From: Paenibacillus alvei DSM 29
GTDB taxonomy: Bacteria > Bacillota > Bacilli > Paenibacillales > Paenibacillaceae
Direction: 5' to 3'
NCBI RefSeq assembly: GCF_000293805.1
Contig: NZ_AMBZ01000007.1
Location: 310,001-374,000, forward strand
DNA length: 64,000 nucleotides
The position numbers were made by a program, and so were the translations under genes. The notes beneath the pieces are model-generated. The model was given only the letters and a program-made list of their open reading frames with translations. It made no database searches and had not been told where the DNA came from. Shown here one piece after another: positions 26,480-43,292 of this stretch (positions are counted from its first letter, which is position 1; each line of letters starts with the position of its first letter).

Positions 26480-26776
26480 TTGGAATACCGGGGAGAAGAA
26501 GCTCTTGGGCTTGTGGAAACATTGGGCATGGTTCCTGCCATTCAAGCGGCGGACGCTATGCTTAAAGCAGCAGATGTTGTTCTTGTATCCTATGAGAATG
26601 TGGGTTCCACGCTTGTAACGATAATGGTAAAAGGTGATGTCGCGGCAGTTCGTTCGGCAGTAGAGGCTGGCGCTGAAGCGGCAGCGAAGATCGGCAAAGT
26701 CACTGCCCATAATGTGATGCCGCGTCCGCTCAGTTCTATTGCAGGAATTGTGAAAGCGCATGCAATTAACGCTTAA
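26480..26776 (+). CDS. Microcompartment shell protein, BMC-H
   Basis: 98 residues, one BMC domain: [20 protein letters not shown], then MLKAADVVLVSYENVGSTLVT, VKGDVAAVRSAVEAGAEAA and HNVMPRPLSS. It forms hexamer tiles of the shell facet. The pore loop region reads ENVGST, unlike the KEMVGGG of the other two canonical paralogues here, so the pore chemistry should differ. It starts at a TTG (26480) after GGTGAGGTGAGG. First gene of the cut operon. Confidence 0.88.
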   Translation: MEYRGEEALGLVETLGMVPAIQAADAMLKAADVVLVSYENVGSTLVTIMVKGDVAAVRSAVEAGAEAAAKIGKVTAHNVMPRPLSSIAGIVKAHAINA

Positions 26777-26798
26777 TTGCCGGGAAGGGAGAGAGGTT

Positions 26799-27092
26799 AT
26801 GAGCAAGCATGATGCACTGGGTTTCATTGAAACCTTTGGAATTGTATTCGTCATGGAAGCGGCGGATGCCATGTGCAAAGCGGCCGATGTAGATTTGATC
26901 GGTTACGAAAACGTGGCGTCCGGTTATATATCTGTCCTTGTTCGCGGAGATGTAGGGGCTGTAAGGGCTGCAGTAGATGCAGGTGTTGCCGCTGTACAGG
27001 CGATGGGGACTGAGGTGTACTGTTCCAACGTTATTCCTAATCCACACCCAGACATTGAAAAGATCATTGCCCGCTATGCCCTTCCTTCTTAA
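26799..27092 (+). CDS. Microcompartment shell protein, BMC-H
   Basis: 97 residues, one BMC domain ([74 protein letters not shown]). The ATG at 26799 with GGGAAGGGAGAGAGG upstream is chosen over an upstream in-frame ATG at 26760 that overlaps the previous gene. The pore loop is ENVASGY. Its sequence is clearly diverged from the 26480 and 38812 paralogues, so the shell mixes at least three hexamer types. Confidence 0.87.
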   Translation: MSKHDALGFIETFGIVFVMEAADAMCKAADVDLIGYENVASGYISVLVRGDVGAVRAAVDAGVAAVQAMGTEVYCSNVIPNPHPDIEKIIARYALPS

Positions 27093-27126
27093 GGGCAGGT
27101 TATCGATAAATTCAAGGGAGGTGACC

Positions 27127-28269
27127 GTGATAAACGACATCTTTGTTATGAAATCGAAGGTTTATTCAGGCGAACAGTCACTGAAGAAACTGGCGGAAAT
27201 TCAAGGTAAGAAAGCCTGTATCGTTTCCGACCAGATGATGGAGAAGTTGGGTTATCTGGAGCAAGTGGTTGATCTGTTGCAAAGCGGTGGAATCTCTACT
27301 GCAGTGTTTACCGGTGTTAAGCCGGATCCCAACGTCAGTATTGTGGCCGAAGCGCTTCAAGTGTATTGGGAAAGCGGCGCTGATGTGTTACTGGCGCTGG
27401 GCGGTGGCTCGGTCATTGATACAGCAAAGGGCGTTCTGTACTTCGCCCGGCAATATGCACAGGAGAAAGGCGCGCCTTTTGTCAAACCATCATTTATTGC
27501 CATTCCTTCTACCAGCGGCACCGGATCGGAAGTAACCGACTTTTCGGTAATTACGGTAGACGGAGACAAAATCGTGATCGTGGATGATTTTATCGCACCA
27601 GACATCGCGATTCTCGATTCCACCCTTACCAAGCAATTGCCAAACAAAGTGGTGGTGGACACCGGAATGGATGTTCTGACTCATGCGCTGGAGGCTTATG
27701 TCTCTGCCAAAGCGACCGACTTTACCGATGCATTAGCCGAAAAGGCCGTCCAACTGGTATTTGCTCATCTGGAAACGCTTTACCACAATCCGGCAGATGC
27801 AGAGGCGCGGATTCGGGTGCAGCATGCATCCTGTATGGCGGGAATGGCGTTTACTAACGCCGGTCTTGGTATCATTCATAGTATGTCCCACGCCTTTGGC
27901 GGAACGTTTCACATTGCTCACGGACGGGTGAATTCCCTGCTTCTTGAGGCGGTAATGGAGTATAACGCCAACTTGGGCGGAAAAGCCATAGACAGGGTTT
28001 GCGAACGTTATGCTAGGCTCGCTTCGCTGCTGCACTTGCCGGCCCGAACCGCCCGTGAAGGAACCGTAAGTTTGATCCAGGCAATTGGAAAGCTGAAACG
28101 CTCCATCGGTATCGAAACCGGAATCCGCGAACTTGGCGTCGATCAGGATGCTTTTGAGGAGGCGTTGTCCCGTATGGCGCGAACCGCGATGGCAGACCGC
28201 TGTACGCCAACCAATCCTCGTCAGCCAACGGAGGAAGAGTTGGCGCACATTTACCGTAAAAGCTTTTAA
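27127..28269 (+). CDS. Iron-containing alcohol dehydrogenase of the microcompartment
   Basis: 380 residues, group III Fe-ADH. NAD-binding GGGSVIDTAKGVLYF is followed by PSTSGTGSEVTDFSVI and the metal ligands in TGMDVLTHALEAYVS and HSMSHAFGGTFHIAHGRVN. It would reduce part of the acetaldehyde to ethanol and regenerate NAD+ inside the shell (CutO/EutG role). The start is the GTG at 27127, overlapping the end of a very strong GGAGGTGA; an ATG at 27148 is the alternative. 34 bp after the shell gene. Confidence 0.87.
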   Translation: MINDIFVMKSKVYSGEQSLKKLAEIQGKKACIVSDQMMEKLGYLEQVVDLLQSGGISTAVFTGVKPDPNVSIVAEALQVYWESGADVLLALGGGSVIDTAKGVLYFARQYAQEKGAPFVKPSFIAIPSTSGTGSEVTDFSVITVDGDKIVIVDDFIAPDIAILDSTLTKQLPNKVVVDTGMDVLTHALEAYVSAKATDFTDALAEKAVQLVFAHLETLYHNPADAEARIRVQHASCMAGMAFTNAGLGIIHSMSHAFGGTFHIAHGRVNSLLLEAVMEYNANLGGKAIDRVCERYARLASLLHLPARTAREGTVSLIQAIGKLKRSIGIETGIRELGVDQDAFEEALSRMARTAMADRCTPTNPRQPTEEELAHIYRKSF

Positions 28270-28352
28270 TAGGTTGTTCAAATAGTCCGCTTTTGATCAC
28301 GAAGTAAATCATGAAGTGGACTCGGCATCGAATCTTGAATTCAGCCGGTCTA

Positions 28353-28488
28353 AGCAGATGCTTACGAAGTATGTTTCCTCCGGAAACATTTCAGGTGCTC
28401 ATGTACCCAAAACGTACACTCCGCTCCTCAGGCCCTAGCTTCATCCAACTGAAGCGTTTTGAAAAAACGCACATCGGAAGCATAAGCT
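28353..28488. repeat. Imperfect inverted repeat in the gap before cutC
   Basis: Arms 28353-28376 and 28465-28488 pair at 18 of 24 positions around an 88-nt loop. Each contains the ATGCTT-CGA core that also occurs in the tandem array at 39117-39284. The 293-bp gap 28270-28562 holds no gene. It may be a transcript-processing or stability element within the operon. Confidence 0.4.
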
Positions 28489-28562
28489 CCGGTGCTGAAA
28501 ACCGGCCTTTTTGAACACGCATTTTATATATATAAATCCTACAAGATTGCGAGGGAAATATA

Positions 28563-31118
28563 TTGGATATTCATGAGTTTTCAAGCAAATTTGCCGAAGC
28601 TACGAAAGCCATGGCTCCTCAAGAACGAGCAGCGATCATGAAGCTGTTCCAGGGAATTTCTAAGGGGCTATCAGATAAAGGAGCTCAACCGCTGACAGCA
28701 GACGGCTCGAGTCAGCATCGCAAGGAAGAATGCGCATACCCGGAGGGAATGACCGAGCGTTTGCGGGCTTTGAAAGAACATTATTTGACCGCTACGCCAA
28801 GCATTACAACCTATCGTGCCAGAGCCTTTACTCAGGTATACAAGGAAAATCCGGGTCTGCCAGCAATTATGCTGCGTGCCAAGGCTTTCCGCAAAGCGTG
28901 TGAAGAGGCTCCGCTGCTCATCCAGGACAACGAGTTGATTGTTGGTCATCCTTGCGGCGCGCCGCGCGCAGGCGCTTTCTCGCCTGACATTGCTTGGCGC
29001 TGGACCCGGGATGAGCTCGATACCATTCACAACCGTCCTCAGGATCCGTTCTACATCTCCGAGGAAGACAAGCGGATTATGCGCGAGGAGCTGTTCCCGT
29101 TCTGGGAAGGCAAATCGGTGGATGAAATTTGTGAACAGCAATATCGGGATGCTGGTCTGTGGGAATTTTCCGGCGAAGCATTCGTCAGCGATCTTTCCTA
29201 TCATCAGATCAACGGCGGCGGAGACTCCAACCCAGGCTACGATGTCATTCTTATGAAGAAAGGGATGCTGGATATCCAGCGGGAAGCCAAAGAGCACATT
29301 GCGAAGCTGTCCATGCAAAACCCGGAAGACATCGACAAAATCTATTACTATAAATCCGTGCTGGATACGACCGAAGGCGTGATGGCGTATGCCAAACGGA
29401 TGTCTGAATACGCATACCAACTGGCTGCTAAAGAAACAAATCCGAAGCGCAAGGCGGAGTTGCAAAAAATCGGTGAAGTCAACGCTCGCGTGCCGGCTCA
29501 CGCTCCGACTACATTCCATGAGGCCATGCAATCGGTCTGGACCGTAGAATCTTTGCTCGTAGTGGAAGAAAATCAGACAGGCATGTCTGTCGGCCGTGTG
29601 GACCAATATATGTATCCTTTCTATGAGGCGGACAGAAAAGCAGGCCGTTTGACAGAGTTTGAAGCATTTGAGATTGCAGGCTGTTTCCTAATCAAATGCT
29701 CGGAAATGATGTGGGTTTCCAGCGCGGGCGGCTCCAAGTTCTTTGCCGGCTACCAGCCGTTCGTCAATATGTGTGTCGGCGGACAAAAACGAGAGGGGGG
29801 CGATGCCACCAACGACTTGACTTACCTGCTCATGGATGCAGTACGTCATGTCGGCGTTTATCAGCCTTCACTTGCTTGCCGTATCCACAATAGTTCTCCT
29901 CAGAAATATTTGAAGAAGATTGTGGATGTCGTTCGTGCTGGTTTGGGCTTCCCAGCCTGCCATTTCGATGATTCCCACATCAAGATGATGCTGATGAAGG
30001 GCTGCAGTATCGAAGATGCTCGCGATTACTGTCTGATGGGCTGTGTGGAACCGCAAAAATCCGGGCGCTTGTATCAATGGACCTCCACCGGATACACCCA
30101 GTGGCCGATTGCCATTGAGTTTGTCCTTAACCGTGGCAAAATGCTCTGGCACGGAAGCAAGCCAGGATTGGACATGGGCGATCTGCGGAACTTCTCGACC
30201 TATGAGGAATTTGAAGCGGCGGTTAAGAAGCAGGTAGAATACATCACCGAGCTTTCCGCAGTGGGTACCGTGATTAGCCAGCGCGTTCACCGCGATTATG
30301 CGCCAAAGCCGCTTATGTCGATCATGTATGAAGGCACGATGGAGACTGGCCGCGACGTTTCCGCCGGCGGCGCCATGTATAACTGGGGACCTGGCTTGAT
30401 CTGGTCCGGTCTGGCAACTTACACCGATTCGATGGCTGCCATCAAGAAGCTGGTTTACGATGACAAAAAATATTCGCTCGAGCAAATCCGTGACGCGTTG
30501 CTGGCCGATTTCGAAGGTTATGAGCAGATTCACAAGGATTGTCTGGACGCGCCAAAATTCGGCAACGACGACGATTATGCCGATCGTATCGCCGCCGATA
30601 TCACCGGGTGGACTGAGAACTATCACCGCAAATTTAAAACGCTGTACTCCACCTTCAGTCACGGTACGCTTTCGATTTCGAATAATACGCCTTTCGGCGA
30701 GATGACCGGTGCTACCGCCAATGGGCGCAAAGCTTGGCTGCCGCTGTCCGACGGTATCAGCCCGACTCAGGGTCATGACAAGAAGGGCCCGACGGCTATT
30801 ATCAAATCAATTAGCAAAATAGATGTCGAAGCCATGAATATTGGTATGGTGCATAACTTCAAACTTTTACGCGGTTTGCTGGAAACACCTGAAGGAGAGA
30901 ACGGACTGATTAATCTGTTGCGGACGGCCTCCATTCTCGGAAACGGTCAAATGCAGTTCAGTTATGTGGATAATGAAACGCTGATTAAAGCGCAGCAAAA
31001 TCCTGATCAATACCGTGATTTGATTATTCGGGTCGCTGGCTATAGCGCATACTTTGTGGAATTGTGTAAAGAAGTGCAGGATGAGATCATCAGCAGAACG
31101 ATGATTGAGCATTTCTAA
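28563..31118 (+). CDS. cutC: Choline trimethylamine-lyase (glycyl radical enzyme)
   Basis: 851 residues. CutC cleaves choline to trimethylamine and acetaldehyde by glycyl-radical chemistry. Key residues are all present with a constant +5 offset from those I recall for Desulfovibrio alaskensis CutC: Tyr213 and Asp221 ([16 protein letters not shown]), thiyl Cys494 and base Glu496 ([16 protein letters not shown]), and radical Gly826 ([12 protein letters not shown]). The [11 protein letters not shown] and [14 protein letters not shown] segments separate it from glycerol and propanediol dehydratases. The N-terminal 45 residues ([20 protein letters not shown]) form the amphipathic targeting extension of shell-enclosed GREs. 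Start is TTG with GAGGG upstream. No frameshift. Confidence 0.93.
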
Positions 31119-31205
31119 AAATAGCCCCGTGCTCTTCTCCGGTGCTGTACGCCGGGGAAGAGACATTCTGGCAATTAGATATGCGGAAAGGGAGGAGCCA
31201 CAGCT

Positions 31206-32168
31206 ATGGATTCAGGTATGCCGGAAAGGCAGGCACGTATTTTCAACATTCAAAAATACTCCATATATGACGGCCCCGGTATCCGAACGCTTGTTTTCTT
31301 CAAGGGATGTCCCCTGCGCTGTCAGTGGTGTGCGAACCCAGAGGGTCTGGAAAAGAAATATCAGGTAATGTACCAACGGGATTTGTGCAACGATTGCGGC
31401 GCATGTGTTGCGGCGTGTCCCCGAGGAATTCACCGTCTGGACACTTCCGGGTCGCAGGAGCCTTCCAAGCTGCAGCATGTGGTGGACCGGAAGATCGAGT
31501 GCATGGGTTGTCGGGAATGTGAGAAGGTTTGTCCCGCACGGGCGCTCTCTATCGTCGGGAAGAATATGACGGTATCGGAAATTGTGGAAATTGTAGAGCA
31601 GGATATGCTGTTCTACACGACATCCGGGGGTGGCGTCACGTTGGGCGGCGGCGAAGTATGTGCGCAGTCCGAGTTTGCGGTCAATTTACTCAAGGAATGC
31701 AAGCGCTCCGGAATCCATACGGCCATTGAAACCTCTGGGCATACCAAACCGGAAGCGATTTTGGCCATGGCCGAATTTACCGATTTGATCTTATACGATC
31801 TGAAACATATGGATTCGGATCGCCATTATCAACTGACGGGTGTACGCAACGAGCGCATTCTCGAAAATTTGCGGGAACTGATCACCCGCAAACATAACGT
31901 GGAGGTGCGGATGCCGCTAATGAAGGGGCTCAATGATGATGAGGACACCATCCGCGAAACGGTAGAGTTTCTGCTTCCCTATAAGGAATACCGTAATTTT
32001 AAAGGCATCGATTTGCTCCCTTATCACAAGCTGGGGATTAACAAATACAGGCAATTGGATATGGCTTACACCGTTGAACGCGATCTAAGCCTTAATGAAG
32101 CCGATCTGGAGCGTATTGAACGTCAAATCAGCCAATACCATTTCCCAGTCCGGGTAATCAAACATTAA
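31206..32168 (+). CDS. cutD: CutC-activating radical SAM enzyme
   Basis: 320 residues, glycyl radical enzyme activase. The radical SAM CxxxCxxC motif is [15 protein letters not shown] near residue 37. It is followed by the two-cluster ferredoxin insert typical of this group ([12 protein letters not shown] and [12 protein letters not shown]), then [10 protein letters not shown] and [11 protein letters not shown]. It makes the Gly826 radical of CutC from SAM under anoxic conditions. AGGGAGGAG precedes the ATG. It lies 87 bp after cutC. Confidence 0.92.
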
Positions 32169-32170
32169 GA

Positions 32171-32220
32171 GCATGCTTACGAAGCCAGTTTTGTTTAGTA
32201 AAGCTAGCGCTTTACAAACT
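32171..32220 (+). repeat. Single copy of the operon's intergenic repeat
   Basis: GCATGCTTACGAAGCCAGTT followed by TTGTTTAGTAAAGCTAGCGC matches the unit of the tandem array at 39117-39284: the same ATGCTT-CGAAG start, AGTTTTGTT, then AGCTAGCGCTT and a CAAACT end. Left AAGTTTTG-like and right CAAAACT-like ends can pair. Confidence 0.55.
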
Positions 32221-32244
32221 CGCAAATCTTTAAGGAGGACGTTT

Positions 32245-32598
32245 ATGGAGCAGCCTGCTGGACCTGATCTCGGGCGGATTATTCAGGAGTCGGTGCCGGG
32301 CAAACAAGTGACGCTGGCCCATATCATTGCTTCACCCGTGCCTGACATGTATGAAAGACTCGGCATCGATGAAGCGGGGGCAATTGGCATATTAACACTG
32401 TCGCCCAGCGAAACCTCCATTATTGCCGCCGATATCGCCACCAAGGTGGCAGATGTGAAAATCGGCTTTCTGGATCGCTTTACTGGTTCGGTGCTTCTCA
32501 CCGGAGATATAGCCAGTGTGGAAACCGCGTTACGGACCATCATTGAGACGTTGAGCGGTAGTCTGGGTTTTGCGACGGCGGAAATTACACGGACATGA
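32245..32598 (+). CDS. Microcompartment shell protein, PduU/EutS-like BMC-H
   Basis: 117 residues, circularly permuted BMC domain like PduU/EutS: an N-terminal strand ([20 protein letters not shown]) precedes the core ([40 protein letters not shown]). PduU-type hexamers have a beta-barrel cap over the pore. The start is the ATG at 32245 with TAAGGAGG 6 nt upstream; 24 upstream in-frame codons lie in the repeat element and are not coding. It overlaps the next gene by ATGA. Confidence 0.82.
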
Positions 32599-33026
32599 AA
32601 AAACGCATTATGCTGATCGGCCCTACAGACTGCGGAAAAACGACGCTGGCCCATGCGCTTGATGGTACGAATCGCCCGTTGCGGAGGACGCAGGATATTA
32701 TCTATGGGCCGAAGACGATCGATACACCGGGCGCATATGTCGAGAATACCTGGATGTACAGCCATTTGATTGCAACGGCGCAGAACGCAAGCCATATTTT
32801 GATATTGGTGGATCAGTCCCGGCATCTGGAAGTCTACTCGCCCGGCTTTGCGTCTTCTTTCACAAAGCCCGTTGTCGGGGTAATAACGCAAGCCGATCTT
32901 GCGCTGGAAAATGAGAACGATTGTGTACAAGTTTTGAAACGTGCCGGGATAACCGAACCCTTTTTCCGCATTAGTCTTCCCGTGGGAAGGGGAATCGGGG
33001 AATTGAAACGTTATTTGTTCGGGTAA
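32595..33026 (+). CDS. eutP: EutP/PduV-like small GTPase
   Basis: 143 residues with a P-loop ([11 protein letters not shown], residues 8-18), a switch-like [11 protein letters not shown] (DTPG) and VGVITQADL (the TKxD equivalent). The family is tied to Eut/Pdu compartments; EutP was reported to bind GTP and PduV to associate with shells. A 4-nt ATGA overlap with the shell gene before it shows translational coupling. Confidence 0.8.
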
Positions 33027-33045
33027 TATGAGTGGAGTTGAGACC

Positions 33046-33750
33046 ATGAAATTTATTACCGAAATGGAATTGCGCAATGTGTACAGGATAGGGCCTTTTA
33101 CATCATACATGGTGGAGCATGGAAGCCGATTAACGCCAGAGGCGCGCCAGTTCTTGACAGATCGCCAGATCGCCGTGTCCTATGGTACGCAAGAGAAAAA
33201 CCAGGAACAAAAGCAAGAGCCAGTCCCTAATCCGGAGCAACAAGCGGAAGAGCCGGATTGGCGGCGTGGGAAGCTGCGCTGTCAGATGCAGTCCGTCTCA
33301 GCCCTGTTCTTGTTAACTGGGCAGGAGCTGCTGGAGCGGGATGTGCTTCTGGCACAGAAGGTACTAGAGCTGTCAAAGCTTTTTTCAGCCCTCCAGAAAG
33401 GGGAAGGGGGCGGCACATCTGCTGCCGATTTATCTTTCCATGGTTGTACCGGCATTACTTGCGATGTTCTTTTTGAGGATGCGGGAGATTGCTTTGAGGT
33501 GACCGAGTTTCACATTCAATTGGAAAAGGGCAAAGAAATTGCTTTGCTGCACCATCTGCGCAGCGCTTTGCGGGAGCTTGGGTTTGCGGTGTTGGAAGCC
33601 GCAGCAGGCAGTCCCCAAGAAAAGCCGGAGAAACCTGTTATTCCTGGAATCAACTATATGATTAACGCATTAAGCTCGCTTATTTGCAGAACTACAGGAG
33701 GTAGAACATGCCAGAAACAAAACCCTTCGCATACTGCGATCAACTGGTAA
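33046..33750 (+). CDS. EutT-like protein in a B12-independent locus
   Basis: 234 residues. The first 45 (FITEMELRNVYRIGPFTSYM, then GSRLTPEARQFLTDRQI) match the N-terminal part of ethanolamine-utilisation cobalamin adenosyltransferase EutT. The C-terminal part (ALFLLTGQELLERDVLLAQK, LLHHLRSALRELGFAVLEA) is helical, but I do not see the EutT HX11CCXXC metal motif: only isolated Cys residues occur. Start is the ATG at 33046 (GGAG 8 nt upstream) rather than 33028. Its end overlaps the next gene by 43 nt, longer than usual, so the C-terminus may be altered by a frameshift near 33680. CutC needs no cobalamin, so the role may be structural. Confidence 0.55.
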   Translation: MKFITEMELRNVYRIGPFTSYMVEHGSRLTPEARQFLTDRQIAVSYGTQEKNQEQKQEPVPNPEQQAEEPDWRRGKLRCQMQSVSALFLLTGQELLERDVLLAQKVLELSKLFSALQKGEGGGTSAADLSFHGCTGITCDVLFEDAGDCFEVTEFHIQLEKGKEIALLHHLRSALRELGFAVLEAAAGSPQEKPEKPVIPGINYMINALSSLICRTTGGRTCQKQNPSHTAINW

Positions 33751-34547
33751 AACAATTTGAAGCGGTCATCCAGAAACCGATTGCAGGGCGGTCTTCGTTC
33801 TACTATACCGGTGTGGATCTGGGAACGGCCTGTGTGGTGCTTACGGTGTTGGATGAGACCCGGAAACCGGTGGCAGGAGCTTACCGCTACGCCGATGTCG
33901 TCCGCGACGGAATGGTAGTGGACTACTTAGGAGCAATTCAGATCGTGAGGGAGCTTAAAGCGCAGTTGGAGCAGCAATTGGATGCAGAACTTGAATATGC
34001 GGCTTCGGCGATTCCTCCGGGAACCGATTTACTGGATGCTGGCGCCATCAAGCATGTGATCCAGGGTGCGGGATTTGAAGTTACGGCTTTATTGGACGAA
34101 CCTACGGCGGCTAATGCCGTGCTGCAAATATCCGACGGAGCCATTGTAGACATTGGAGGCGGAACAACAGGCATTTCGATTCTGAAAAATGGAAAGGTTG
34201 TCTATGTCGCCGACGAAGCAACGGGAGGCACTCACTTTTCTTTGGTGATTGCCGGGGCATACCAGATGAGTTTTTCTGAAGCGGACTGTTTCAAGCGCGA
34301 CCCTGCCCATCACCAAGAATTGCTGCCGCTGCTCCGGCCGGTCATTGATAAGGTTGCTTCCATCATCAACCGCCATGTTGTGGGCCATGAGGTCAAGGAA
34401 TTGTACTTGGTCGGCGGCACCTGCTGCTTGTCCGATATGGAGACAATCATTGAGCAGAAGACCGGCATTGCTACCTATAAGCCTAGCAACCCTCTGTTTG
34501 TCACGCCGCTGGGCATTGCTCTGAATTGTACGCAGGAGGCGATGTGA
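33708..34547 (+). CDS. eutJ: EutJ-like Hsp70-fold protein
   Basis: 279 residues, actin/Hsp70-like ATPase fold. It has phosphate-1 YTGVDLGTACVVLTV, AIPPGTDLL, the phosphate-2 VDIGGGTTGISILKNGK, LLDEPTAANAVLQI and LVGGTCCL. EutJ is thought to help folding or loading of compartment enzymes, but its role is unproven. AGGAGG precedes the ATG at 33708. Confidence 0.82.
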   Translation: MPETKPFAYCDQLVKQFEAVIQKPIAGRSSFYYTGVDLGTACVVLTVLDETRKPVAGAYRYADVVRDGMVVDYLGAIQIVRELKAQLEQQLDAELEYAASAIPPGTDLLDAGAIKHVIQGAGFEVTALLDEPTAANAVLQISDGAIVDIGGGTTGISILKNGKVVYVADEATGGTHFSLVIAGAYQMSFSEADCFKRDPAHHQELLPLLRPVIDKVASIINRHVVGHEVKELYLVGGTCCLSDMETIIEQKTGIATYKPSNPLFVTPLGIALNCTQEAM

Positions 34548-34868: not shown

Positions 34869-35118
34869 ATTGATTCACAATATCTGGTCTACCCGTAAAG
34901 CCGATTCCCTTGTAGGAATGAAACTGATGCTGGCCGAGGTGATTGGTGGAAGTGACGACGGGGGCCGTTTGATTGTAGTCGATACGATCGGCGCTGGCAT
35001 AGGTGATCGGGTGATTGTCTGCACCGGCTCTTCGGCCCGCAAGATGCTGCATACAGACGATGTTCCAGTGGATGCCGTCGTCGTCGGCATCATCGACGCG
35101 GACTGCGTGTTCGAATAA
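34855..35118 (+). CDS. Microcompartment vertex protein, BMC-P (EutN/CcmL)
   Basis: 87 residues with the EutN/CcmL pattern: IHNIWSTRKADSLVGMKLM, VVDTIGAGIGDRVIVCTGSS, ARKM, and the end AVVVGIIDADCVFE. Pentamers cap the vertices of the shell. It is the only BMC-P gene in the operon. The ATG at 34855 is preceded by GGGGAGGAAGGA. Confidence 0.88.
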   Translation: MIAAELIHNIWSTRKADSLVGMKLMLAEVIGGSDDGGRLIVVDTIGAGIGDRVIVCTGSSARKMLHTDDVPVDAVVVGIIDADCVFE

Positions 35119-35161
35119 ATATTCGAACAGTAATCGAATGCAGCGAGAGGGGGCGAGAACT

Positions 35162-35818
35162 GTGAAAAAACTAATATGTGCTGCGGATGTAGAAGGATGG
35201 GCGGCTTCCGGACAGAAGCAATGCTGCATTGACCGTAACACGATTGTGACACCGGCGGCCCGTGATAGGGCAATAGAGCTGGGGTTAGAGTTTACCAATG
35301 AGCCTTGTGGGACTAAGAGCTCCGAAGCCGCAGGCTGCAAGACTCAAGATGATCTCGACATGAATGCTATTTTTAAAATTTTCAAGATGTTATCGGAAAA
35401 AGGACTGGTTGAAAAGCTGTTGGGAACGACTATCGAGCCACCTTATCAAGCGGAGACGGATCCGACTGGCTTGAAACTTGTGCGGGGCCGGACGGTAAAA
35501 ATGGAAGCTTACGAAACGGGAACAGCTAGCGCCAAGGTATATCGTCAAGAGGTAATCGGGAAGCCGGATAGTTCCATGAGCGCAGGGTTTCTGACTGTCG
35601 ACCGCGGTAGCTTCGAGCAGGAGACAGCCGACGCAGAAACTTATATCGTGTTGGAAGGCACGCTCGATGTCACTTTGAACGAGAGAACCTTCACCGCCCA
35701 TGAGGGGGATGTACTCTTCATCCCCAAAGGGGTGAAAGCGACCAAGGGATCGTCGAACTGCGCGAGGATGTTTTATATGACTTACCCGGCGGGCGAACCT
35801 GATCGGAAGCTGCAGTAA
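35162..35818 (+). CDS. eutQ: EutQ-like protein with C-terminal cupin
   Basis: 218 residues. The N-terminal part (KKLICAADVEGWAASGQKQC, IVTPAARDRAIELGLEF) matches the EutQ/shell-assembly lead. The C-terminal cupin has AETYIVLEGTLDVTLNERTF, HEGDVLFIPKG. In Eut systems EutQ is an acetate-kinase-like or assembly factor; in this operon it may supply the missing acetate kinase step, which is inference. It starts at a GTG (AGAGGGGGCG upstream). Confidence 0.78.
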   Translation: MKKLICAADVEGWAASGQKQCCIDRNTIVTPAARDRAIELGLEFTNEPCGTKSSEAAGCKTQDDLDMNAIFKIFKMLSEKGLVEKLLGTTIEPPYQAETDPTGLKLVRGRTVKMEAYETGTASAKVYRQEVIGKPDSSMSAGFLTVDRGSFEQETADAETYIVLEGTLDVTLNERTFTAHEGDVLFIPKGVKATKGSSNCARMFYMTYPAGEPDRKLQ

Positions 35819-35832
35819 CAGGAGGTGATAGC

Positions 35833-36651
35833 ATGCAGGCGCTTGGATTAATTGAAACGCGGGGACTTCTTCCAGCGATTGAATGTCTGGACATCATGCT
35901 CAAATCAGCTCAGGTCGAACTGATAGAAAAGTGCAATGTGGGCGGCGGGCTAGTGACCATCGCGGTAACCGGCGATGTTGGCGCTGTTCAAGCATCCGTG
36001 GAGGCGGGTGCCTCCGCGGCGCAACAATTGGGCAGTGATGTGCTTATCAGCCGACATGTTATTCCAAGACCCCACAACGACATAGCGAGCATCATCGGCC
36101 GGCGCAGCGTTTCGAATTTCACCAAGGAGAAGGACGAGCTGGCGCTGCCAGTACAGCATACTCAGGCGGCGGAACAGTTTCCAAAGCAGCTGCCTGAGCA
36201 AACGCCAGAGCAGACCTCGAAACGTTACACAGCGTCTGATGTTCAACTGGGCGATGCGCCCAATATTCCACTGGACATGGCTCCTAAAGTTCCACTGGAA
36301 GCAGCACCCGAAGTCTCATTCAATATCGGTGGTGATGAAGACTTCCCTGTACTAACAGCCGATCACGCTCAGGCTCTTGCGTCTAAAGACGTCAGTCCAG
36401 AACCAGACAATCAAGATGCGGCAGATGGAGATCCGGCAGTGCTAGACAGTCCACTCAAACACCAAATTGATGTGCTGGTAAAGGAATCAGGGCTTGACAA
36501 AGCAATGGAACTGCTGGAAACAATGACTGCTGTTAGGCTGCGCGGACTGGCCAGAGAGTGCAGCCCCGCATATGGGATGAGCATGACGACAATTTCGAAG
36601 GCAAACAAGGTCAAACTGCTCAAGCGGTTCCGCCATTATTATCAGCAGTAA
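35833..36651 (+). CDS. BMC-H shell protein with long C-terminal extension
   Basis: 272 residues. Residues 1-90 are a canonical BMC domain (QALGLIETRGLLPAIECLDI, KCNVGGGLVTIAVTGDVGAV, RHVIPRPHNDIASII). Residues 100-205 are a low-complexity Pro/Glu/Gln/Asp linker with a repeat-like PKVPLEAAPEVS. The last 65 residues are a compact basic helical domain (LRGLARECSPAYGMSMTTIS, KANKVKLLKRFRHYYQQ) that looks like a SAP/HeH-type fold. EutK and PduK also carry C-terminal domains, but this one is different. It could bind nucleic acid, cargo or another shell protein. GGAGGTGA precedes the ATG. Confidence 0.8.
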   Translation: MQALGLIETRGLLPAIECLDIMLKSAQVELIEKCNVGGGLVTIAVTGDVGAVQASVEAGASAAQQLGSDVLISRHVIPRPHNDIASIIGRRSVSNFTKEKDELALPVQHTQAAEQFPKQLPEQTPEQTSKRYTASDVQLGDAPNIPLDMAPKVPLEAAPEVSFNIGGDEDFPVLTADHAQALASKDVSPEPDNQDAADGDPAVLDSPLKHQIDVLVKESGLDKAMELLETMTAVRLRGLARECSPAYGMSMTTISKANKVKLLKRFRHYYQQ

Positions 36652-36678
36652 ACAGTAAGCGAGAGGAGGATGTTTCAC

Positions 36679-38152
36679 TTGGAAAATTATGATTATGACT
36701 TGCAATCGATTCAGGAAACGCGGGACTTGGCCCGTGCAGGAAAAGCGGCCGCCGATGTCCTTGCCGGCTACGATGCTGAACAGATTGACAGAATTGTACA
36801 AAACATGGTACGGACAGCGGAGGTCAACGCCGCTGAACTGGCTGCACTGGCAGTAGAGGAAACCGGATTTGGCAAGATTGAGGATAAGATCTTCAAAAAC
36901 CGACTGGCTTCCACGGAGCTGTATGAATCCATTCGGGATACGAAAACGATTGGGGTTATCCGCGAGGACAAGACGAATCAATTAATAGAGATTGCCGAGC
37001 CAGTCGGACTGCTCATGGGTATTATTCCATCAACCAATCCGACATCCACTACGATTTTTAAATCGATCATTGCGATAAAGGCTCGCAATGGAATCATCTT
37101 TTCGCCGCATCCTTCGGCAAAGAAATCTATCATGCGGGCCGCGGAATTGATGCACGCCGCCGCTGTCGAGGCAGGGGCTCCCGAAGGAATCATTGGCTGC
37201 GTTACCAAGCCTTCGATGCCGGCGACGCAGGAACTGATGAAGTGCGATGAAATCGCCATGATTATCGCAACGGGCGGCTCGGCAATGGTGAAGTCCGCCT
37301 ACAGTGCGGGTAAGCCGGCGTTGGGAGTCGGGCCGGGCAATGTACCAGCCTACATTGAGCGTACCGCTGATATTCCAAAGGCGGTAGCAAATATCATTGC
37401 CAGCAAAAACCTTCGATTACGGTACAATCTGCGCCTCTGAACAGGCTGTTATCGTGGAGGAGTGTATCCGTTCTCAGGTGATCGCAGAGTTTGAGCGTCA
37501 GGGCGGTTACTTTATGAATCAGGAGGAAACTGCTAAAGTCGCAGCAAAGTTGTTTGTAAAAGGCCATGCCATGAATTCAAGACTGGTGGGACGTTCACCT
37601 CAGGTGATCGCGGAAGCGGCCGGCATTCAAATTCCTGCAGGGGTCAAGGTGCTATTAGGCGAACAGCAGGGCGTGGGAGAGAAATTCCCGCTTTCCTATG
37701 AGAAGCTTACTACCGTATTGGCGTTTTACACCGTACAGGACTGGCATGAGGCTTGCGATCTAAGTGTTGGACTGCTGCGTAATGGAGGAATAGGCCATAG
37801 CTTCTCCATCCATACGCAGAATCATGATATGGTCATGGAATTTGCGCAAAAACCTGTGTTCCGCATTTTGGTGAATACAGGCTCCACTCAGGGTGGTGTG
37901 GGCGCAAGCACCGGACTTGCCCCGGCCTTCACTTTGGGATGTGGAACCTGGGGGGGCAGCGCCACTTCAGATAATGTGGGACCACAGCACTTGATTAATA
38001 TCAAGCGTGTGGCTTACGGCATTAAGGACTGTACGGCACAAACCCCCTACTCTGTTCCAACTCCGCAGTTGCCAAAGCAACAGGACGATGCGCTGCTGTT
38101 GAATCTAGTCGATGAGCTGATGTCCATTTTGCAGAAAAGCGGTGACAGCTAG
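36679..38152 (+). CDS. cutB: CoA-acylating aldehyde dehydrogenase of the microcompartment, frameshifted
   Basis: About 490 residues when joined. It oxidises acetaldehyde to acetyl-CoA. Motifs: PVGLLMGIIPSTNPTSTTIF, ATGGSAMVKSAYSAGKPALG (NAD site), the catalytic Cys in TFDYGTICASEQA, and the glycine-rich end. The A5 run at 37405-37409 has one base too many, just before the catalytic Cys; removing it gives IASKTFDYGTICASEQ. A C-terminal amphipathic helix (LLLNLVDELMSILQK) resembles a targeting peptide. I prefer the TTG at 36679 (GGAGG 9 nt upstream) to the ATG at 36670, which abuts the ribosome site. Confidence 0.85.
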
Positions 38153-38799
38153 TGGGGAACTATGATCAAGTACTTTCTTTGTTAATGGAGGTTGTATCCG
38201 GTGCTGGTAAGGCGGAGGAGGAGCCGCGCTCCATCCCTTTAGGGATTTCGAATCGCCATGTGCATCTTTCTCAGGCTGATGTGGAGACGCTCTTCGGATC
38301 CGGATATACGCTATCCAAAATGCGTGATTTGTCCCAACCCGGACAGTATGCATGTAATGAGACCGTTACGGTCTGCGGGCCCAAGGGGGCCATCGAAAAA
38401 GTACGGGTTCTCGGTCCAGTGCGGAAACAGACCCAGGTAGAAATTATGCGGGGAGACTGTTTTAAGTTGGGCGTGAAAGCTCCAGTGCGCTTGTCCGGGG
38501 AGCTTGAAGGCACACCGGGCGTCACGTTGGTCGGGCCGAAGGGAAGCGTATATAGTTCCTGCGGCTTGATGGTTGCACAGCGCCACATTCATATGACGCC
38601 TGATGATGCCCTTTTCTTTGGCGTAATCGATGGAGAAATGGTCAGTATTCAATTTGATGGACTCCGGGGCGGAGGGTACAATCAGGTCGCAATCAGAGTT
38701 AGCAGTGACGCTGCTCTCGACTGTCATATCGACGTTGAAGAGGCCAACGCGATGGATTTAACATCGGCGTCTGTTGTTAAAATCATTAAAAATCGTTAG
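38152..38799 (+). CDS. pduL: Phosphate propanoyl/acetyltransferase PduL
   Basis: 215 residues with two PduL domains. The Zn-binding histidines lie in GISNRHVHLSQ and AQRHIHMTPDD. It converts acetyl-CoA and phosphate to acetyl phosphate and recycles CoA inside the shell. The N-terminus (YDQVLSLLMEVVSG) is an amphipathic helix like known encapsulation peptides. It starts at a GTG overlapping the TAG of the previous gene by one base. No acetate kinase of AckA/PduW type was seen nearby. Confidence 0.9.
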   Translation: MGNYDQVLSLLMEVVSGAGKAEEEPRSIPLGISNRHVHLSQADVETLFGSGYTLSKMRDLSQPGQYACNETVTVCGPKGAIEKVRVLGPVRKQTQVEIMRGDCFKLGVKAPVRLSGELEGTPGVTLVGPKGSVYSSCGLMVAQRHIHMTPDDALFFGVIDGEMVSIQFDGLRGGGYNQVAIRVSSDAALDCHIDVEEANAMDLTSASVVKIIKNR

Positions 38800-38811
38800 G
38801 AGGAAATGAAC

Positions 38812-39093
38812 ATGAGATCAGAAGCTCTTGGTTTGGTTGAAACAAAAGGTTTGGTAGGTTCTATCGAGGCAGCGGACGCTATGGTCAAAGCGGCCAATGT
38901 CACTCTAATCGGCAAAGAGATGGTAGGCGGCGGACTTGTTACCGTTATGGTACGGGGCGATGTAGGAGCGGTGAAGGCGGCGACAGACGCCGGTGCCGCA
39001 GCTGCGAAAAATGTAGGGGAACTCGTGTCGGTACATGTGATTCCTCGTCCCCACAGCGAAGTGGAGAATATCCTTCCGGCTGCTAAGGCATAA
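38812..39093 (+). CDS. Microcompartment shell protein, BMC-H (major type, copy 1)
   Basis: 93 residues, canonical PduA/EutM-like [78 protein letters not shown]. Nearly identical to the gene at 39302. I choose the ATG at 38812, 8 nt after AGGAGG, over the ATG at 38806, which is only 2 nt after it. Confidence 0.9.
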
Positions 39094-39116
39094 TTCAAAA
39101 AATTATTAACTAAGTC

Positions 39117-39284
39117 TATGCTTCCGAAGCAGTTTTGTTCGGAGCTAGCGCTTGATTCTCACAAAACTAGGCCTATGCTTCCGAAGCAAGTTTTGTTCGG
39201 AGCTAGCGCTTGATTCTCACAAAACTAGGCCTATGCTTCCGAAGTAAGTTTTGTTCGGAGCTAGCGCTTGATTCTCACAAAACT
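39117..39284 (+). repeat. Three tandem 57-58 bp intergenic repeats
   Basis: Units start at 39117, 39174 and 39232, each beginning TATGCTTCCGAAG and ending ACAAAACT. Inside each, AGTTTTG pairs with CAAAACT across TTCGGAGCTAGCGCTTGATT, and AGCTAGCGCT is itself a palindrome. The copies differ by only a few bases. The array fills the gap between two near-identical shell genes. Related single copies occur at 32171 and, more loosely, at 28353. There are no unique spacers, so it is not CRISPR. Confidence 0.8.
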
Positions 39285-39301
39285 TTTAGGAGGAATGTAA
39301 C

Positions 39302-39583
39302 ATGAAATCAGAAGCATTGGGTTTAATTGAAACAAAAGGTCTGGTAGGTTCTATCGAAGCAGCGGACGCTATGGTCAAAGCGGCCAATGTCGCCTTGATC
39401 GGCAAAGAGATGGTAGGCGGCGGACTTGTCACCGTAATGGTACGTGGCGATGTAGGAGCGGTGAAAGCGGCAACGGACGCTGGTGCTGCAGCCGCACAGC
39501 GTGTAGGGGAACTGATATCCGTACATGTGATTCCTCGCCCTCACAGTGAAGTGGAAAACATTCTTCCCGGTGCTAAGCTATAA
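39302..39583 (+). CDS. Microcompartment shell protein, BMC-H (major type, copy 2)
   Basis: 93 residues, differing from copy 1 (38812) at only about six to eight positions (for example NVALIG for NVTLIG, AAQRVG for AAKNVG). Same KEMVGGG pore loop. AGGAGG precedes the ATG. Recent duplication, perhaps to raise the dose of the major hexamer. Last gene of the operon, followed by a terminator. Confidence 0.9.
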
Positions 39584-39601
39584 TTTATATTGATATTCTG
39601 C

Positions 39602-39641
39602 AAAGGGCCAAAACTCGGTAAAACTGGTTTTGGCCTTTTTA
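39602..39641 (+). terminator. Terminator of the cut microcompartment operon
   Basis: GGCCAAAAC and GTTTTGGCC form a 9-bp stem with A and T flanks (AAAG before, T5 after). Confidence 0.8.
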
Positions 39642-39836
39642 TTTTTGTCTGCAACAATCCGCTTGTCGAAAGCTTGTCGGAGTAGTCTTTTTTCTATAAA
39701 TAAGGATTTGAGGAGGAGGGATGCACTATTTCCAAACAGGTTGAAAATTGCTATAATAGAGATGATATATTGTGAAAAATTTAGCATGCAATGTTTATTT
39801 TCCCGTTCATTTTCGGTGAAAGGGTGCAACGAGATT

Positions 39837-41015
39837 ATGCTGAAAACCAATAGCCCGATCGCAACCAAAGTATACGCACGATACAGCGGCATTCTGTCTC
39901 TTTCTAAGTTCTCGCTGCTGCTGCACGATAACAATGGAGACGTGTTGCTTGAGTTCAATCCGTCTCCTGATTTCTGCAGGCATATTTGTTGGGAGAATCC
40001 TACGCGACCTTGCGCGGATTATTTGAAGCGCTTTAATACCGGTGAACAGGGGCGATTTGTTTGCTGTTACGGTCTGGAGAATATTTTGCTGCCCATTAAG
40101 ATCAAAGATGAAGTTGTTGGCTTCATCTCGGGGATGCAGGCGTATTCCCAGGAGAGGGAGTTTCAGAAGTACCTGATTAATACGGCGGAATTGGCCGAAA
40201 TGAAGGGGCTGGATTTGGAGGTTGTAGCGAAGGCGATATCGGCTTTTCCAACCATTGATCAGGATAAAGCAGATATTCATGAGCAGCTTTGCCATCATAT
40301 CGCAAGGAATATTGCGCTCGACATCGCCGAAAGCGCGCAGGACAACACAGGAATTATCAATCGTCTGTCTGCGGAAAAAGAAATACTGGAGAAGAAAGTA
40401 ATTGACTTAGAAGCAAAAAACATGTCTCTCGTCATCAATCCACATTTTCTTTTCAATACTTTGAATTCCATTGCCCGCATCGCCTATTTCGAACACTCCC
40501 ATACGACGGAGGAATTGATTTATTGCCTGTCCGACTTGCTGCGATACAATGTTAAGCAGGATGATCAGCTTCATACCATCGCAGCCGAAATGGATAACAT
40601 TGAGAAGTATTTGTATATACAAAAGGCACGCTTCAAAAATCGCCTGCAGTATGAAATCATTGTTCCTAATGAATTAAAGGCTTATCGCATTCCTAATTTG
40701 GTGATTCAGCCTATTGTGGAAAATGCAGTCATTCATGGAATTACCCCTAAGCGGGACGGGGGTACCGTTCGTCTGATTGCCGAAAAGTACAGAAATGATA
40801 TCACCATTTCTGTTATAGACAACGGTAATGGGTTCTCGCCGGAGGTACTAAAGCTCATTCATCAGCCGGGCAGCAAGATCGGCGTGGGCTTCCGGAGCAC
40901 CGATAGCCGTTTAAAGCGTTATTTCGGAGAAGAGTATGGGTTATCGATCGTGAAATCCGATTACAGCGGGAGCACGGTTAACATCCGCATCCCCACCCAA
41001 CCAATTGCGAGGTGA
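39837..41015 (+). CDS. Soluble sensor histidine kinase with PocR-type ligand domain
   Basis: 392 residues, no membrane helices. Residues 1-165 form a PocR-like sensory domain with paired cysteines (FCRHICWENPTRPCADYLKR, FVCCYGLENILLPI, VGFISG). A short coiled coil (NRLSAEKEILEKKVIDLEAK) follows, then a LytS/YesM-type kinase core with the phospho-His in LVINPHFLFNTLNSIARIA and an ATPase domain (VENAVIHGI, DNGNGFS). It probably senses choline or a derivative in the cytoplasm and phosphorylates the regulator at 41020. I start at the ATG at 39837; upstream codons overlap the operon terminator. Confidence 0.78.
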   Translation: MLKTNSPIATKVYARYSGILSLSKFSLLLHDNNGDVLLEFNPSPDFCRHICWENPTRPCADYLKRFNTGEQGRFVCCYGLENILLPIKIKDEVVGFISGMQAYSQEREFQKYLINTAELAEMKGLDLEVVAKAISAFPTIDQDKADIHEQLCHHIARNIALDIAESAQDNTGIINRLSAEKEILEKKVIDLEAKNMSLVINPHFLFNTLNSIARIAYFEHSHTTEELIYCLSDLLRYNVKQDDQLHTIAAEMDNIEKYLYIQKARFKNRLQYEIIVPNELKAYRIPNLVIQPIVENAVIHGITPKRDGGTVRLIAEKYRNDITISVIDNGNGFSPEVLKLIHQPGSKIGVGFRSTDSRLKRYFGEEYGLSIVKSDYSGSTVNIRIPTQPIAR

Positions 41016-41019
41016 TGCA

Positions 41020-41788
41020 ATGAGCGTAGTTATGTTTGTTGAAGATGAACCGATAGAACTGGAGTTTCTTCAATCCATCGCGCAGGAAATTCTGGGTGCT
41101 GAAGATAAGCTGCTTATTTGCGATACGGGTATGCAAGCGATTAAGCTCGCCAAACAATATCGGCCGGATATTATTTTTATGGACATCATGCTGCCTGAAA
41201 TGGATGGAATATCCTCGTTGCAGGAAATTCGCCGCTTTCTCCCTGACGCATGCGTGACGATTTTGTCTGCCAGTTCGGATTTCTCCTATGCACAGGCGGC
41301 AATCAGTCTGCAGGTACATGAATATTTGCTTAAGCCGGTCAAGCCGGAAAAATTGCGGCAAATGATCCGTAAGGGGCTGGATAAGGCCGCTCAATCAGAA
41401 GAAAAGTGTTTGACAGAAACTTATCAGATTCAATCGGCTCAAGAATGTCAGCGCTTTATTAAAGAAGCCGTCGATTATATTCAGCAGAATTACAAAGATA
41501 AGCTGACCTTGCAAATGGTGGCGAGTCATGTGTATATGAATGCCCAATATTTTTAGCCGTATTTTCAAAAGGGAGCTCGGCGTTACTTATACGGATTATG
41601 TGAACAAGCTCAAGATTGTACATGCCTGCAAGCTGCTTGAGACTACTGGGTATCCCGCCTATCGCATCTCCACAGAATGCGGCTTTACCGATCCATCTTA
41701 TTTCAACCGGGTATTCTACAAGCAAATGAATATGACGCCGAAGGAATATAAAAAAAGCGTTCTTGCCGAAAGAAAAAACACGAAATAG
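41020..41788 (+). CDS. AraC-type response regulator, frameshifted
   Basis: About 255 residues when joined. The receiver domain has VEDEP, the phospho-Asp in IIFMDIMLPEMDGISS, TILSASSD and LLKPVKPEK. Its C-terminal AraC HTH is split by one extra T in the T5 run at 41550-41554 (YMNAQYF-SRIFKRELGVTYTD when corrected), then CGFTDPSYFNRVFYKQMNMT. It starts at an ATG 4 nt after the kinase stop with GAGGTGA. With the kinase it should control the cut operon and transporter. As written, the DNA-binding domain would be lost. Confidence 0.8.
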
Positions 41789-41797
41789 AGTTCCTAA

Positions 41798-41830
41798 AGT
41801 CTCCCCCGATTATGGTGGGAGACTTTTTTG
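41798..41830 (+). terminator. Rho-independent terminator
   Basis: AGTCTCCC and GGGAGACT arms with a T6 tail after the response regulator gene. Confidence 0.8.
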
Positions 41831-41847
41831 TTGGCTTTATCGTCCTA

Positions 41848-41870
41848 AAAGTACGAATAGTACCAGAATG
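41848..41870 (+). promoter_or_regulatory. Candidate regulator site before the DMT transporter
   Basis: AAAGTACGAATAGTACCAGA followed by ATG contains GTACCAGAATG, shared with the inverted repeat at 26319. A TATACA at 41937-41942 could be the -10. That would place the transcript start near 41950 and explains why the coding start should be at 41990 and not at the ATG at 41879. Confidence 0.35.
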
Positions 41871-41989
41871 GAGAAAAAATGATTCAGGAAGTCCAACAAG
41901 AGGTACGGTTAGTAACAGGCGCAATGGTCTCTTTGCTATACAATGAAGATACATCTACGAAGATAAATCTACTTAACAGAGGTGTATGG

Positions 41990-43000
41990 ATGATGAAGGA
42001 AACAGTGGCAGCTCCCGCGGCTACGGCCGGCATGCTGAAACAAAAGATGAACAGTCGTTTCCGAAGAAATGGAATCGTTTACGGACTGATTTCCGGGTTA
42101 ACGTTCGGCCTTTACAGTACCGTTGTAGCCCTGGCCATGATGAAGGAACCTTTTCTGGGGATTATAGGAGCGTTTGCGGCACCCATAGTGGCATCGGCGA
42201 TTAATGATGCTTTGGCGGCGATCTGGCTTCTGATCTGGAACATAAAGAAAGGAAAGATCAAAGAAATCGGCCGCAGTCTGGTAACGATACCCGGATTGAT
42301 GGTCGCGATTGCCGCGGTGTTTGGCGGCCCGATCGCCAACGGGGCCTATCTGGTTGGGATTGATATGGCTGGAGCGGCGGCTATCCCTATTTCGGCGCTT
42401 TGTCCGATGTTTGGTGCTATTTTCGCGCGAATGTTTCTGAAGCAGAAGATTGATAAACGGGTGGCCGTCGGCATGTTCATCTGTGTTATCGGAGCGGCGC
42501 TCATCTCCTATGTCAAGCCTGAAGGCGGCGTGGAGAATTTCACATTGGGCATTGTTTTTGCTCTGGTAGCCGCGCTTGGCTGGGGACTGGAAGGTGTATT
42601 TGCCACTTTCGGGATGTCCATGCTGGATTCTAATATCGCCATTACCATTCGCGAGGGTGTTTCTGGAATCGTTTACATTGCCGTGCTAGTGCCTATTTTC
42701 GGGGCAACGGATCTCTTTGCTTCCGCGCTTGGATCCGTATCACCAATGCTCATTATCGCGGCTGCAGCCTTGTTTACGGCTATTTCTTTCCTGACTTGGT
42801 ATATGGCCAACAATATGGTTGGCGTTGCTGTCGGAATGTCGCTCAACATTACCTATGTGCTGTGGGGGGTTGTTTTTGCTGCTATCTTCCTCGGTGATGC
42901 GCTAACTCCTACAGTAATTGCCGGTGCAATTATCATTACAATTGGAGCGCTTTTAGTTTCGATGAATCCAATGGATCTGTTCAAAAAGAAGGAGGCGTAA
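41990..43000 (+). CDS. DMT-superfamily (EamA/LicB-like) transporter
   Basis: 336 residues with ten hydrophobic helices in two five-helix EamA repeats (GIVYGLISGLTFGLYSTVVA; later LGIVFALVAALGWGLEGVFA). Glycine-rich ends such as LNITYVLWGVVFAAIFLGDA are typical. LicB, the pneumococcal choline transporter, belongs to this superfamily, and the position after the cut locus suggests choline uptake or trimethylamine/ethanolamine export. AGAGGTG lies before the ATG at 41990; an upstream ATG at 41879 would add 37 non-hydrophobic residues and lies before the likely promoter. Confidence 0.78.
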   Translation: MMKETVAAPAATAGMLKQKMNSRFRRNGIVYGLISGLTFGLYSTVVALAMMKEPFLGIIGAFAAPIVASAINDALAAIWLLIWNIKKGKIKEIGRSLVTIPGLMVAIAAVFGGPIANGAYLVGIDMAGAAAIPISALCPMFGAIFARMFLKQKIDKRVAVGMFICVIGAALISYVKPEGGVENFTLGIVFALVAALGWGLEGVFATFGMSMLDSNIAITIREGVSGIVYIAVLVPIFGATDLFASALGSVSPMLIIAAAALFTAISFLTWYMANNMVGVAVGMSLNITYVLWGVVFAAIFLGDALTPTVIAGAIIITIGALLVSMNPMDLFKKKEA

Positions 43001-43004
43001 GCAA

Positions 43005-43292
43005 ATGCCATTGTTGCCGATTCGCTCCCGGGTGCTGCTTTTCATGTCCACTGTGCAGCAGGCAAATATTGATGATGCGATGGACGCTTTGAAAAGCGAA
43101 TACGGTGGAGAACGTCAATTTACAAGAGCAAACTTTCTGGATCATATGCTGTCGTTGCAGGCAAACGGACTGATTGACGAGATCCAGTACGAGCTGGATG
43201 CTAACGGGGAATTATGTATGTACTATGCAATCAACGATGAGGGTATTCATACGATCAATAAATACTTGCCTAAAAAGTGGACGCAAAAATAA
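43005..43292 (+). CDS. Small unknown protein with winged-helix look
   Basis: 95 residues. Helical start (QQANIDDAMDALKSEYGG, FTRANFLDHMLSLQANGLID) followed by a beta-hairpin (IQYELDANGELCMYYAINDE) and a helix. The helix-helix-hairpin order resembles a winged-helix fold, but no family is recognised. It starts 4 bp after the transporter stop with AAGGAGG, so it is translationally coupled and may be a local regulator or partner. Confidence 0.6.
   Translation: MPLLPIRSRVLLFMSTVQQANIDDAMDALKSEYGGERQFTRANFLDHMLSLQANGLIDEIQYELDANGELCMYYAINDEGIHTINKYLPKKWTQK

Follow-up and report, generated by a model that had tools for sequence, protein, structure and literature searches.

A Probable Mobile GRM1-Type Choline-Utilization Island in Paenibacillus alvei with a Linked Choline Kinase and without the Second Aldehyde Dehydrogenase

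Identity and Extent of the Locus

Contig NZ_AMBZ01000007.1 of Paenibacillus alvei DSM 29 carries, within the 64,000-nucleotide stretch analyzed here (contig positions 310,001 to 374,000, hereafter the window, to which all coordinates refer), an ∼18 kb locus (25214..43292) for the choline trimethylamine (TMA)-lyase CutC, its activating enzyme CutD, an alcohol dehydrogenase (ADH), PduL, the BMC-H and BMC-P shell proteins of a bacterial microcompartment (BMC), and EutP, EutJ, EutQ and EutT-like proteins. By gene content it is a choline compartment of an already known kind, type 1 of the glycyl-radical-enzyme microcompartments (GRM1), and we consider it highly probable that it represents a horizontally mobile choline-utilization island to which a choline kinase is linked and in which the inactive second aldehyde dehydrogenase (AldDH) is missing. 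At its core this is an ordinary GRM1 locus; the useful side results are the clade-wide absence of the second AldDH and the island-linked kinase. An initial annotation had recognized the choline TMA-lyase microcompartment locus at 26480..43292, and the open frames agree with its description. New here are the larger conserved unit, whose left end is the choline-kinase-like gene (25214..26191), its horizontal movement, the missing dead AldDH and a split in the gene of the remaining one. The nearest named relative of the genome is Paenibacillus sp. NAIST15-1 (rpoB 98.7%). Our literature search, made through titles and abstract openings, found no Paenibacillus cut locus and no cutC-linked choline kinase, which we do not take as absence from print; PMC10266427 names Paenibacillus only within a reference.

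All genes of the locus lie on the forward strand except the kinase gene. The 851-residue product of 28563..31118 exceeds the curated CutC model by a wide margin (TIGR04394, 1602.7 bits, cut-off 1050); none of the other listed models for glycyl-radical enzymes reaches its own cut-off. All 13 residues in and around the active site of the Desulfovibrio alaskensis enzyme that we tested (taken from PMC12838924) recur at a constant offset of +5, including Cys494, Glu496 and Gly826, which bears out the constant offset noted in the initial annotation. The family model begins at residue 63, behind an amphipathic segment at residues 24-38, so that the N-terminal extension is of the short GRM1 kind, unlike the ∼350-residue extension of GRM2. 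The adjacent CutD (31206..32168) carries ferredoxin-like Fe-S domains (Fer4 models) and exceeds both its specific model (TIGR04395, 514.8 bits, cut-off 360) and the broad activase subfamily model. An iron-containing ADH, assigned from PF25137 (198.8 bits), PF00465 (138.4 bits) and gene order, is encoded at 27121..28269 (start approximate), and the PduL phosphotransacylase at 38152..38799 (PF06130, 255.2 bits).

The shell is represented by seven BMC-H genes and one BMC-P gene. Six of the BMC-H products exceed the Pfam cut-off for PF00936: 26480..26776 (95.5 bits), 26799..27092 (start approximate, 93.9 bits), the EutS-like 32173..32598 (46.7 bits; NF012012 117.2, slightly below its cut-off of 123), 35833..36651 (89.4 bits over residues 3-80 of 272), 38806..39093 (101.4 bits) and 39302..39583 (100.6 bits). 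The seventh (34548..34868) falls narrowly under it (22.9 against 24.5 bits), and we identify it as the Fe-S pore protein GrpU because of its match to structure 4olo (1.7e-41; 4olp, 6.5e-14) and its motif G-S-C-P-Q-N, which is the GrpU motif given in PMC6325248. The BMC-P vertex protein of the EutN/CcmL kind is encoded at 34855..35118 (start approximate; PF03319, 91.8 bits). The product of 35833..36651 bears a C-terminal extension of ∼190 residues and, at 60-95% identity among close relatives, is more variable than the other shell proteins.

In a CutC tree built by a quick method from 59 rows, hand-picked from the window and 102 candidates and including the window and two outgroup rows, ten Paenibacillus and Brevibacillus sequences form a clade with support of 100 that falls inside the GRM1 rows and apart from two GRM2 enzymes; a phylogeny was among the checks that the initial annotation had proposed. 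Since the tree agrees with the family models, the active-site residues, the order of the genes and the presence of GrpU, we assign the locus to GRM1, in line with the GRM1-type layout suggested before: CutC stands with a cognate activase and a short N-terminal extension, BMC-H and BMC-P genes accompany AldDH, ADH and a phosphotransacylase, and GrpU is present. The locus is not filed under GRM1A or GRM1B, in both of which PMC8217296 marks a putatively inactive second AldDH copy, because that copy is absent from it, as it is from the corresponding stretches of ten relatives. Nor are there the PduS and PduT homologs that define GRM1b in PMC6325248.

No gene for a protein with two BMC domains (BMC-T) occurs within the locus, as first noticed in the initial annotation, which is ordinary for GRM1 since PMC6325248 puts PduS and PduT in ∼25% of these loci (and GrpU in ∼85%). 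Such a protein does exist in a second, ethanolamine-related (EUT) BMC locus of the same genome (contig C10, 452001-472000), together with EutB and EutH; it bears a C-P-G-K-F stretch resembling the PduT Fe-S motif given in PMC6325248. Complex1_51K, the domain that this source names first for PduS, has no match in the whole genome, although 9 of 14 control genomes match. Of 19 genomes of the genus, 18 have EutB, so that the ethanolamine system is core to it, versus cut in 6 of 19. Among the 69 well-covered loci defined below, 62 have a GrpU match; five of the six Bacillus/Neobacillus GRM1 loci in the census (L032, L034, L052, L053, L062) have none.

Distribution and Horizontal Transfer

Matches to cut occur in only 10 of 394 genomes of the family, that of the window included, nine of them above the family cut-off. 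The block from the kinase to the last BMC-H gene is kept in all ten save for EutP, which is missing from three (G015, G016, G018), and nine also retain the end with the regulator and transporter genes, which is truncated in G015; G086 has several broken frames. The island is conserved as a unit while its flanks differ between carriers. In four genomes (G006, G018, G236, G271) cutC DNA is 93.9-94.5% identical to that of the window at rpoB identities of 77.0-80.8%, and in Brevibacillus the values are 89.4% and 74.1%. We reject plain vertical descent in the family, given the disagreement between cutC and rpoB and the restriction to 10 of 394 genomes; these comparisons show that the island moves horizontally.

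No direct or inverted repeats of at least 10 bases are shared between 25001-25214 and 43293-43850, the window has no tRNA genes, and none of five cut-negative genomes read downstream of a neighboring cytolysin gene offers a clean empty site; these five lack the window flank proteins bar one 26% match. Right-flank pieces of three carriers (G015, G006, G010) match cut-negative genomes (G008, G002, G012), and the site beside the cytolysin gene is likely a variable region. Elsewhere, Enterococcus raffinosus megaplasmids of ∼1 Mb carry a GRM1 locus (L140; five records listed, each with 2-3 CutC-like places), and cutC occurs at two separate loci in Clostridium mobile (L066/L069) and again at two in Clostridium aminobutyricum (L071/L085).

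The initial annotation had read the nearby gene for a cholesterol-targeting toxin as a sign of a nutrient route from animal membranes. That cytolysin and cut island form such a functional pair is very improbable. Both genes do lie on one contig, ∼4-18 kb apart, in five of the six cut-positive genomes of the genus (on different contigs in G016), but the cytolysin does not track cut. Of the 19 genomes of the genus, 16 have a member of its family, namely 6 of 6 with cut and 10 of 13 without (one-sided Fisher test, 0.30), and only 2 of 11 other cut-positive genomes examined have it, ∼170 kb and >2 Mb away from cutC. A variable region next to the cytolysin gene may explain the proximity equally well.

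The Missing and the Split Aldehyde Dehydrogenase

For comparison across species we used 80 named loci, those most similar to the window among 289 matches, which places distant GRM1 loci such as those of Desulfovibrio outside both census and tree. For AldDH we counted the 69 in which the sequence reaches at least 3.9 kb upstream of CutC and at least 9 kb downstream of it, leaving out 11. Both AldDH copies are present in 63 of these. The downstream copy has Cys at the catalytic position in 63 of 63, whereas in the upstream copy, by a motif rule, this position is Ser (47 loci), Pro (9) or Ala (7) and never Cys. The six exceptions are three Paenibacillus/Brevibacillus loci (one copy, with Cys), L039, where no copy was found, L081, which has the upstream copy alone, and L083, whose single copy lies upstream and has Cys. 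A second AldDH at the locus is absent in all 11 Paenibacillaceae/Brevibacillus genomes examined, window included, and in the window it is the ADH gene that adjoins the place where most sampled GRM1 loci have it. On the CutC tree this character requires at least two changes over 53 rows. The second copy with its changed catalytic Cys was described in 2014 with no more than a guess at its role (PMC4207490); because it is cleanly absent from one clade, that role becomes testable by comparing carriers.

The remaining AldDH gene (36670..38152, CoA-acylating) is read as two overlapping frames, 36670-37440 and 37397-38152, offset by one base. The break lies just ahead of the ICASEQ catalytic motif, which the second frame holds together with a C-terminal amphipathic helix; the N-terminal part matches PF00171 and the C-terminal part alone has no Pfam match. 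In 10 of 10 relatives the two parts form a single frame at the same place, G086 having a further break downstream. Likewise, the response-regulator gene at 41020..41788 is split near 41540 and is a single frame in 9 of 9 relatives tested. These two frameshifts, the truncated regulator end of G015 and the broken genes of G086 would fit an island that is decaying or silent in this strain, with two true pseudogenes and a nonfunctional compartment. We regard this as improbable: the remaining island genes are open, and adjacent fragments of one gene recur across the window (6324-6800/6872-7354 and 24187-24651/24665-25024), which makes assembly error the likelier source of the breaks. Further such fragments, for example 14233-15321/15270-15773, suggest an error-rich assembly. 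An open AldDH gene in the EUT locus, 50-52% identical to that of the island, might supply a substitute for the split one.

The Linked Choline Kinase

Divergent from the shell operon, on the reverse strand, lies the gene for a choline-kinase-like phosphotransferase of the LicA/MthK kind (25214..26191; PF01633, 67.5 bits, cut-off 29). Its best match in the Protein Data Bank is the choline kinase 4r77 (1e-43), which we take to be LicA of pneumococcus. LicA serves teichoic-acid decoration. Within the genus the kinase is found at full length in 6 of 6 genomes with cut and 0 of 13 without (Fisher test, 3.7e-5, uncorrected for kinship), the other matches covering ∼45 residues at 36-40% identity or 190 residues at 24%. 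Among the named loci, 14 of 80 have it (13 Bacilli and one Clostridia metagenome-assembled genome, MAG), all 14 together with a PocR sensor kinase; two further loci have the PocR sensor without the choline kinase, and the kinase is absent from six Bacilli loci that have 8 kb or more of upstream sequence. The character changes at least three times over 52 rows of the CutC tree, a count that fits gain as well as loss. Two MAG records titled Paenibacillaceae bacterium SIG287 and SIG288 (L048, L064) hold GRM1 loci without the kinase, but these labels may be wrong; the L048 CutC pairs with that of Lacrimispora xylanisolvens in the tree, and L064 is outside it.

CutC acts on free choline, so a kinase here would compete with it, probably diverting part of the choline to phosphocholine. 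Being bound to the island, the kinase suggests a control point for the share of choline turned into TMA. Its likeness to LicA would also suit a mere passenger of the island that makes phosphocholine for surface decoration or lipids. We think this rather unlikely, because no full-length homolog of comparable identity was found in the 13 cut-negative genomes of the genus, and the kinase is retained next to cut in Enterococcus, Vagococcus, Neobacillus, Bacillus and the Clostridia MAG, with a different position and orientation in the Bacillus group.

The divergent arrangement has a precedent in Eubacterium limosum, where the gene for MthK, proven to be a choline kinase, diverges from a choline catabolic operon and phosphocholine is the substrate of a demethylase (PMC12155760). 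GRM1 in general does not require a kinase, since Clostridium ljungdahlii uses choline without one being listed in the gene table of PMC12016505.

Regulation and Accessory Proteins

The shared divergent promoter region contains an inverted repeat, CTGGTAC/GTACCAG (26288..26325), that is a possible operator; its arms are exact in five of nine aligned rows, all of them close relatives. Putative sigma-54 promoters are reported from the GRM loci of C. ljungdahlii; a search of the window for such promoters gave 38 matches with at most two mismatches versus 33.6 expected, which lends them no support. Beyond the last BMC-H gene follow a PocR-domain sensor histidine kinase (39837..41015, start approximate; PF10114, PF06580, PF02518) and the frame-split response regulator, whose N-terminal part matches PF00072 (80.8 bits) and whose C-terminal part we tentatively read as AraC-like. 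An EamA/DMT-family transporter (41990..43000, start approximate; PF00892, 65.2 bits) and a small conserved protein (43044..43292) close the island on the right; the latter has no Pfam match, and its homologs adjoin the transporter in other GRM1 loci.

Family models bear out the genes listed in the initial annotation (CutD, AldDH with its gene split, ADH, PduL, at least six BMC-domain proteins, one BMC-P and the EutP/EutJ/EutQ proteins). These last comprise an EutP/PduV-like GTPase (32595..33026; PF10662, 126.6 bits), an EutJ-like protein of actin/Hsp70 fold (33708..34547; NF011660, 408.5 bits, cut-off 182) and an EutQ-like cupin protein (35162..35818, start approximate; PF06249, 62.8 bits). 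The EutT-like label given to the product of 33028..33750 holds for about its first 50 residues (residues 8-55 match EutT, with a profile match across 47 columns); beyond these, sequence likeness is not seen. No Pfam family matches this protein at an E value of 0.01, the catalytic PF01923 included, for which the EUT-locus protein scores 50.6 bits, and a profile search of solved structures with it returned no match. Its predicted fold resembles PduO-type adenosyltransferases, a likeness that is not decisive, and we do not accept cobalamin adenosyltransferase activity for a protein that has no match to the catalytic domain. CutC and PduL each have, close to the N-terminus, an amphipathic segment like those described as encapsulation peptides, and AldDH has one at its C-terminus. 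All the amphipathicity percentiles are each the best of several positions and hence biased upward; the values are 96 for the AldDH N-terminus, 87 for ADH, 67 for EutQ and 66 for CutD.

Proposed Metabolism

By analogy with systems in PMC12016505 and PMC6325248, we predict an operon that is induced by choline, with the PocR two-component pair as the probable mediator in this locus. CutD would then place a radical on Gly826 of CutC, and the thiyl radical of Cys494 would cleave choline to TMA and acetaldehyde inside a shell of the seven BMC-H proteins and one BMC-P protein. Acetaldehyde would be split between ethanol, via ADH, and acetyl-CoA and acetyl phosphate, via AldDH and PduL, while TMA would leave the cell and the divergent kinase traveling with the island would probably send part of the choline to phosphocholine. 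Tentatively, and with slightly more doubt than belief, we propose a distinct Bacilli-type choline island in which the TMA-lyase is coupled to a dedicated kinase that determines how choline is divided between catabolism and a phosphocholine branch. Such an island would spread between Paenibacillaceae and Brevibacillus, would have sister versions in strains of Enterococcus and Vagococcus, and would work in its Paenibacillaceae version without the pseudo-AldDH. If so, the Paenibacillaceae island is a natural deletion experiment on that unexplained subunit. The names of some Enterococcus and Vagococcus carriers suggest insect larvae.

Several points weigh against a mobile, kinase-coupled choline compartment. 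The co-occurrence of kinase and cut rests on 19 related genomes, and 66 of the 80 named loci have no kinase in the stretch examined around CutC, to which this absence refers. For C. ljungdahlii, an organism that uses choline, the published table is without a choline kinase, and neither the sensor nor the regulator gene was itself induced (PMC12016505). Should the AldDH frame break be real, acetaldehyde oxidation here would require another enzyme. For Neobacillus, CutC identity (74%) is below that of rpoB (80%), which counters a simple recent transfer in that lineage. Finally, TMA release and shell assembly are predictions from gene content.

Comparison with Known Systems

The GRM1 loci of C. 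ljungdahlii (PMC12016505) and C. ragsdalei (L037), the latter with a similar core gene order, share with the window CutC and CutD, BMC-H, BMC-P, EutJ, an EutT-like protein, a phosphotransacylase, ADH and two-component regulators. The C. ljungdahlii locus differs in listing BMC-T and PduS, and it has a second AldDH beside CutC and no listed choline kinase, the reverse of what is seen in the window. It is reported to be choline-induced and associated with presumed polyhedral bodies (PMC12016505).

Enterococcus larvae, Enterococcus sp. BWR-S5, E. rivorum and Vagococcus allomyrinae have GRM1 loci with the same order, the choline kinase, the PocR sensor and a CutC that is 79-81% identical. Unlike the window, they keep the upstream inactive AldDH, whose gene in L025 and L028 follows the second BMC-H gene and precedes that of the ADH. 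The GRM2 (type II cut) systems of Klebsiella and Proteus employ the same CutC chemistry with enzymes 71-73% identical to that of the window, but they have a long CutC N-terminal extension and no GrpU according to PMC6325248, whereas the window has GrpU and no long extension. Eubacterium limosum, with MthK beside mthBCA, shares with the window a choline-kinase-like gene divergent from an anaerobic choline operon; there phosphocholine is the substrate of demethylation (PMC12155760), whereas in the window operon CutC is predicted to act on free choline.

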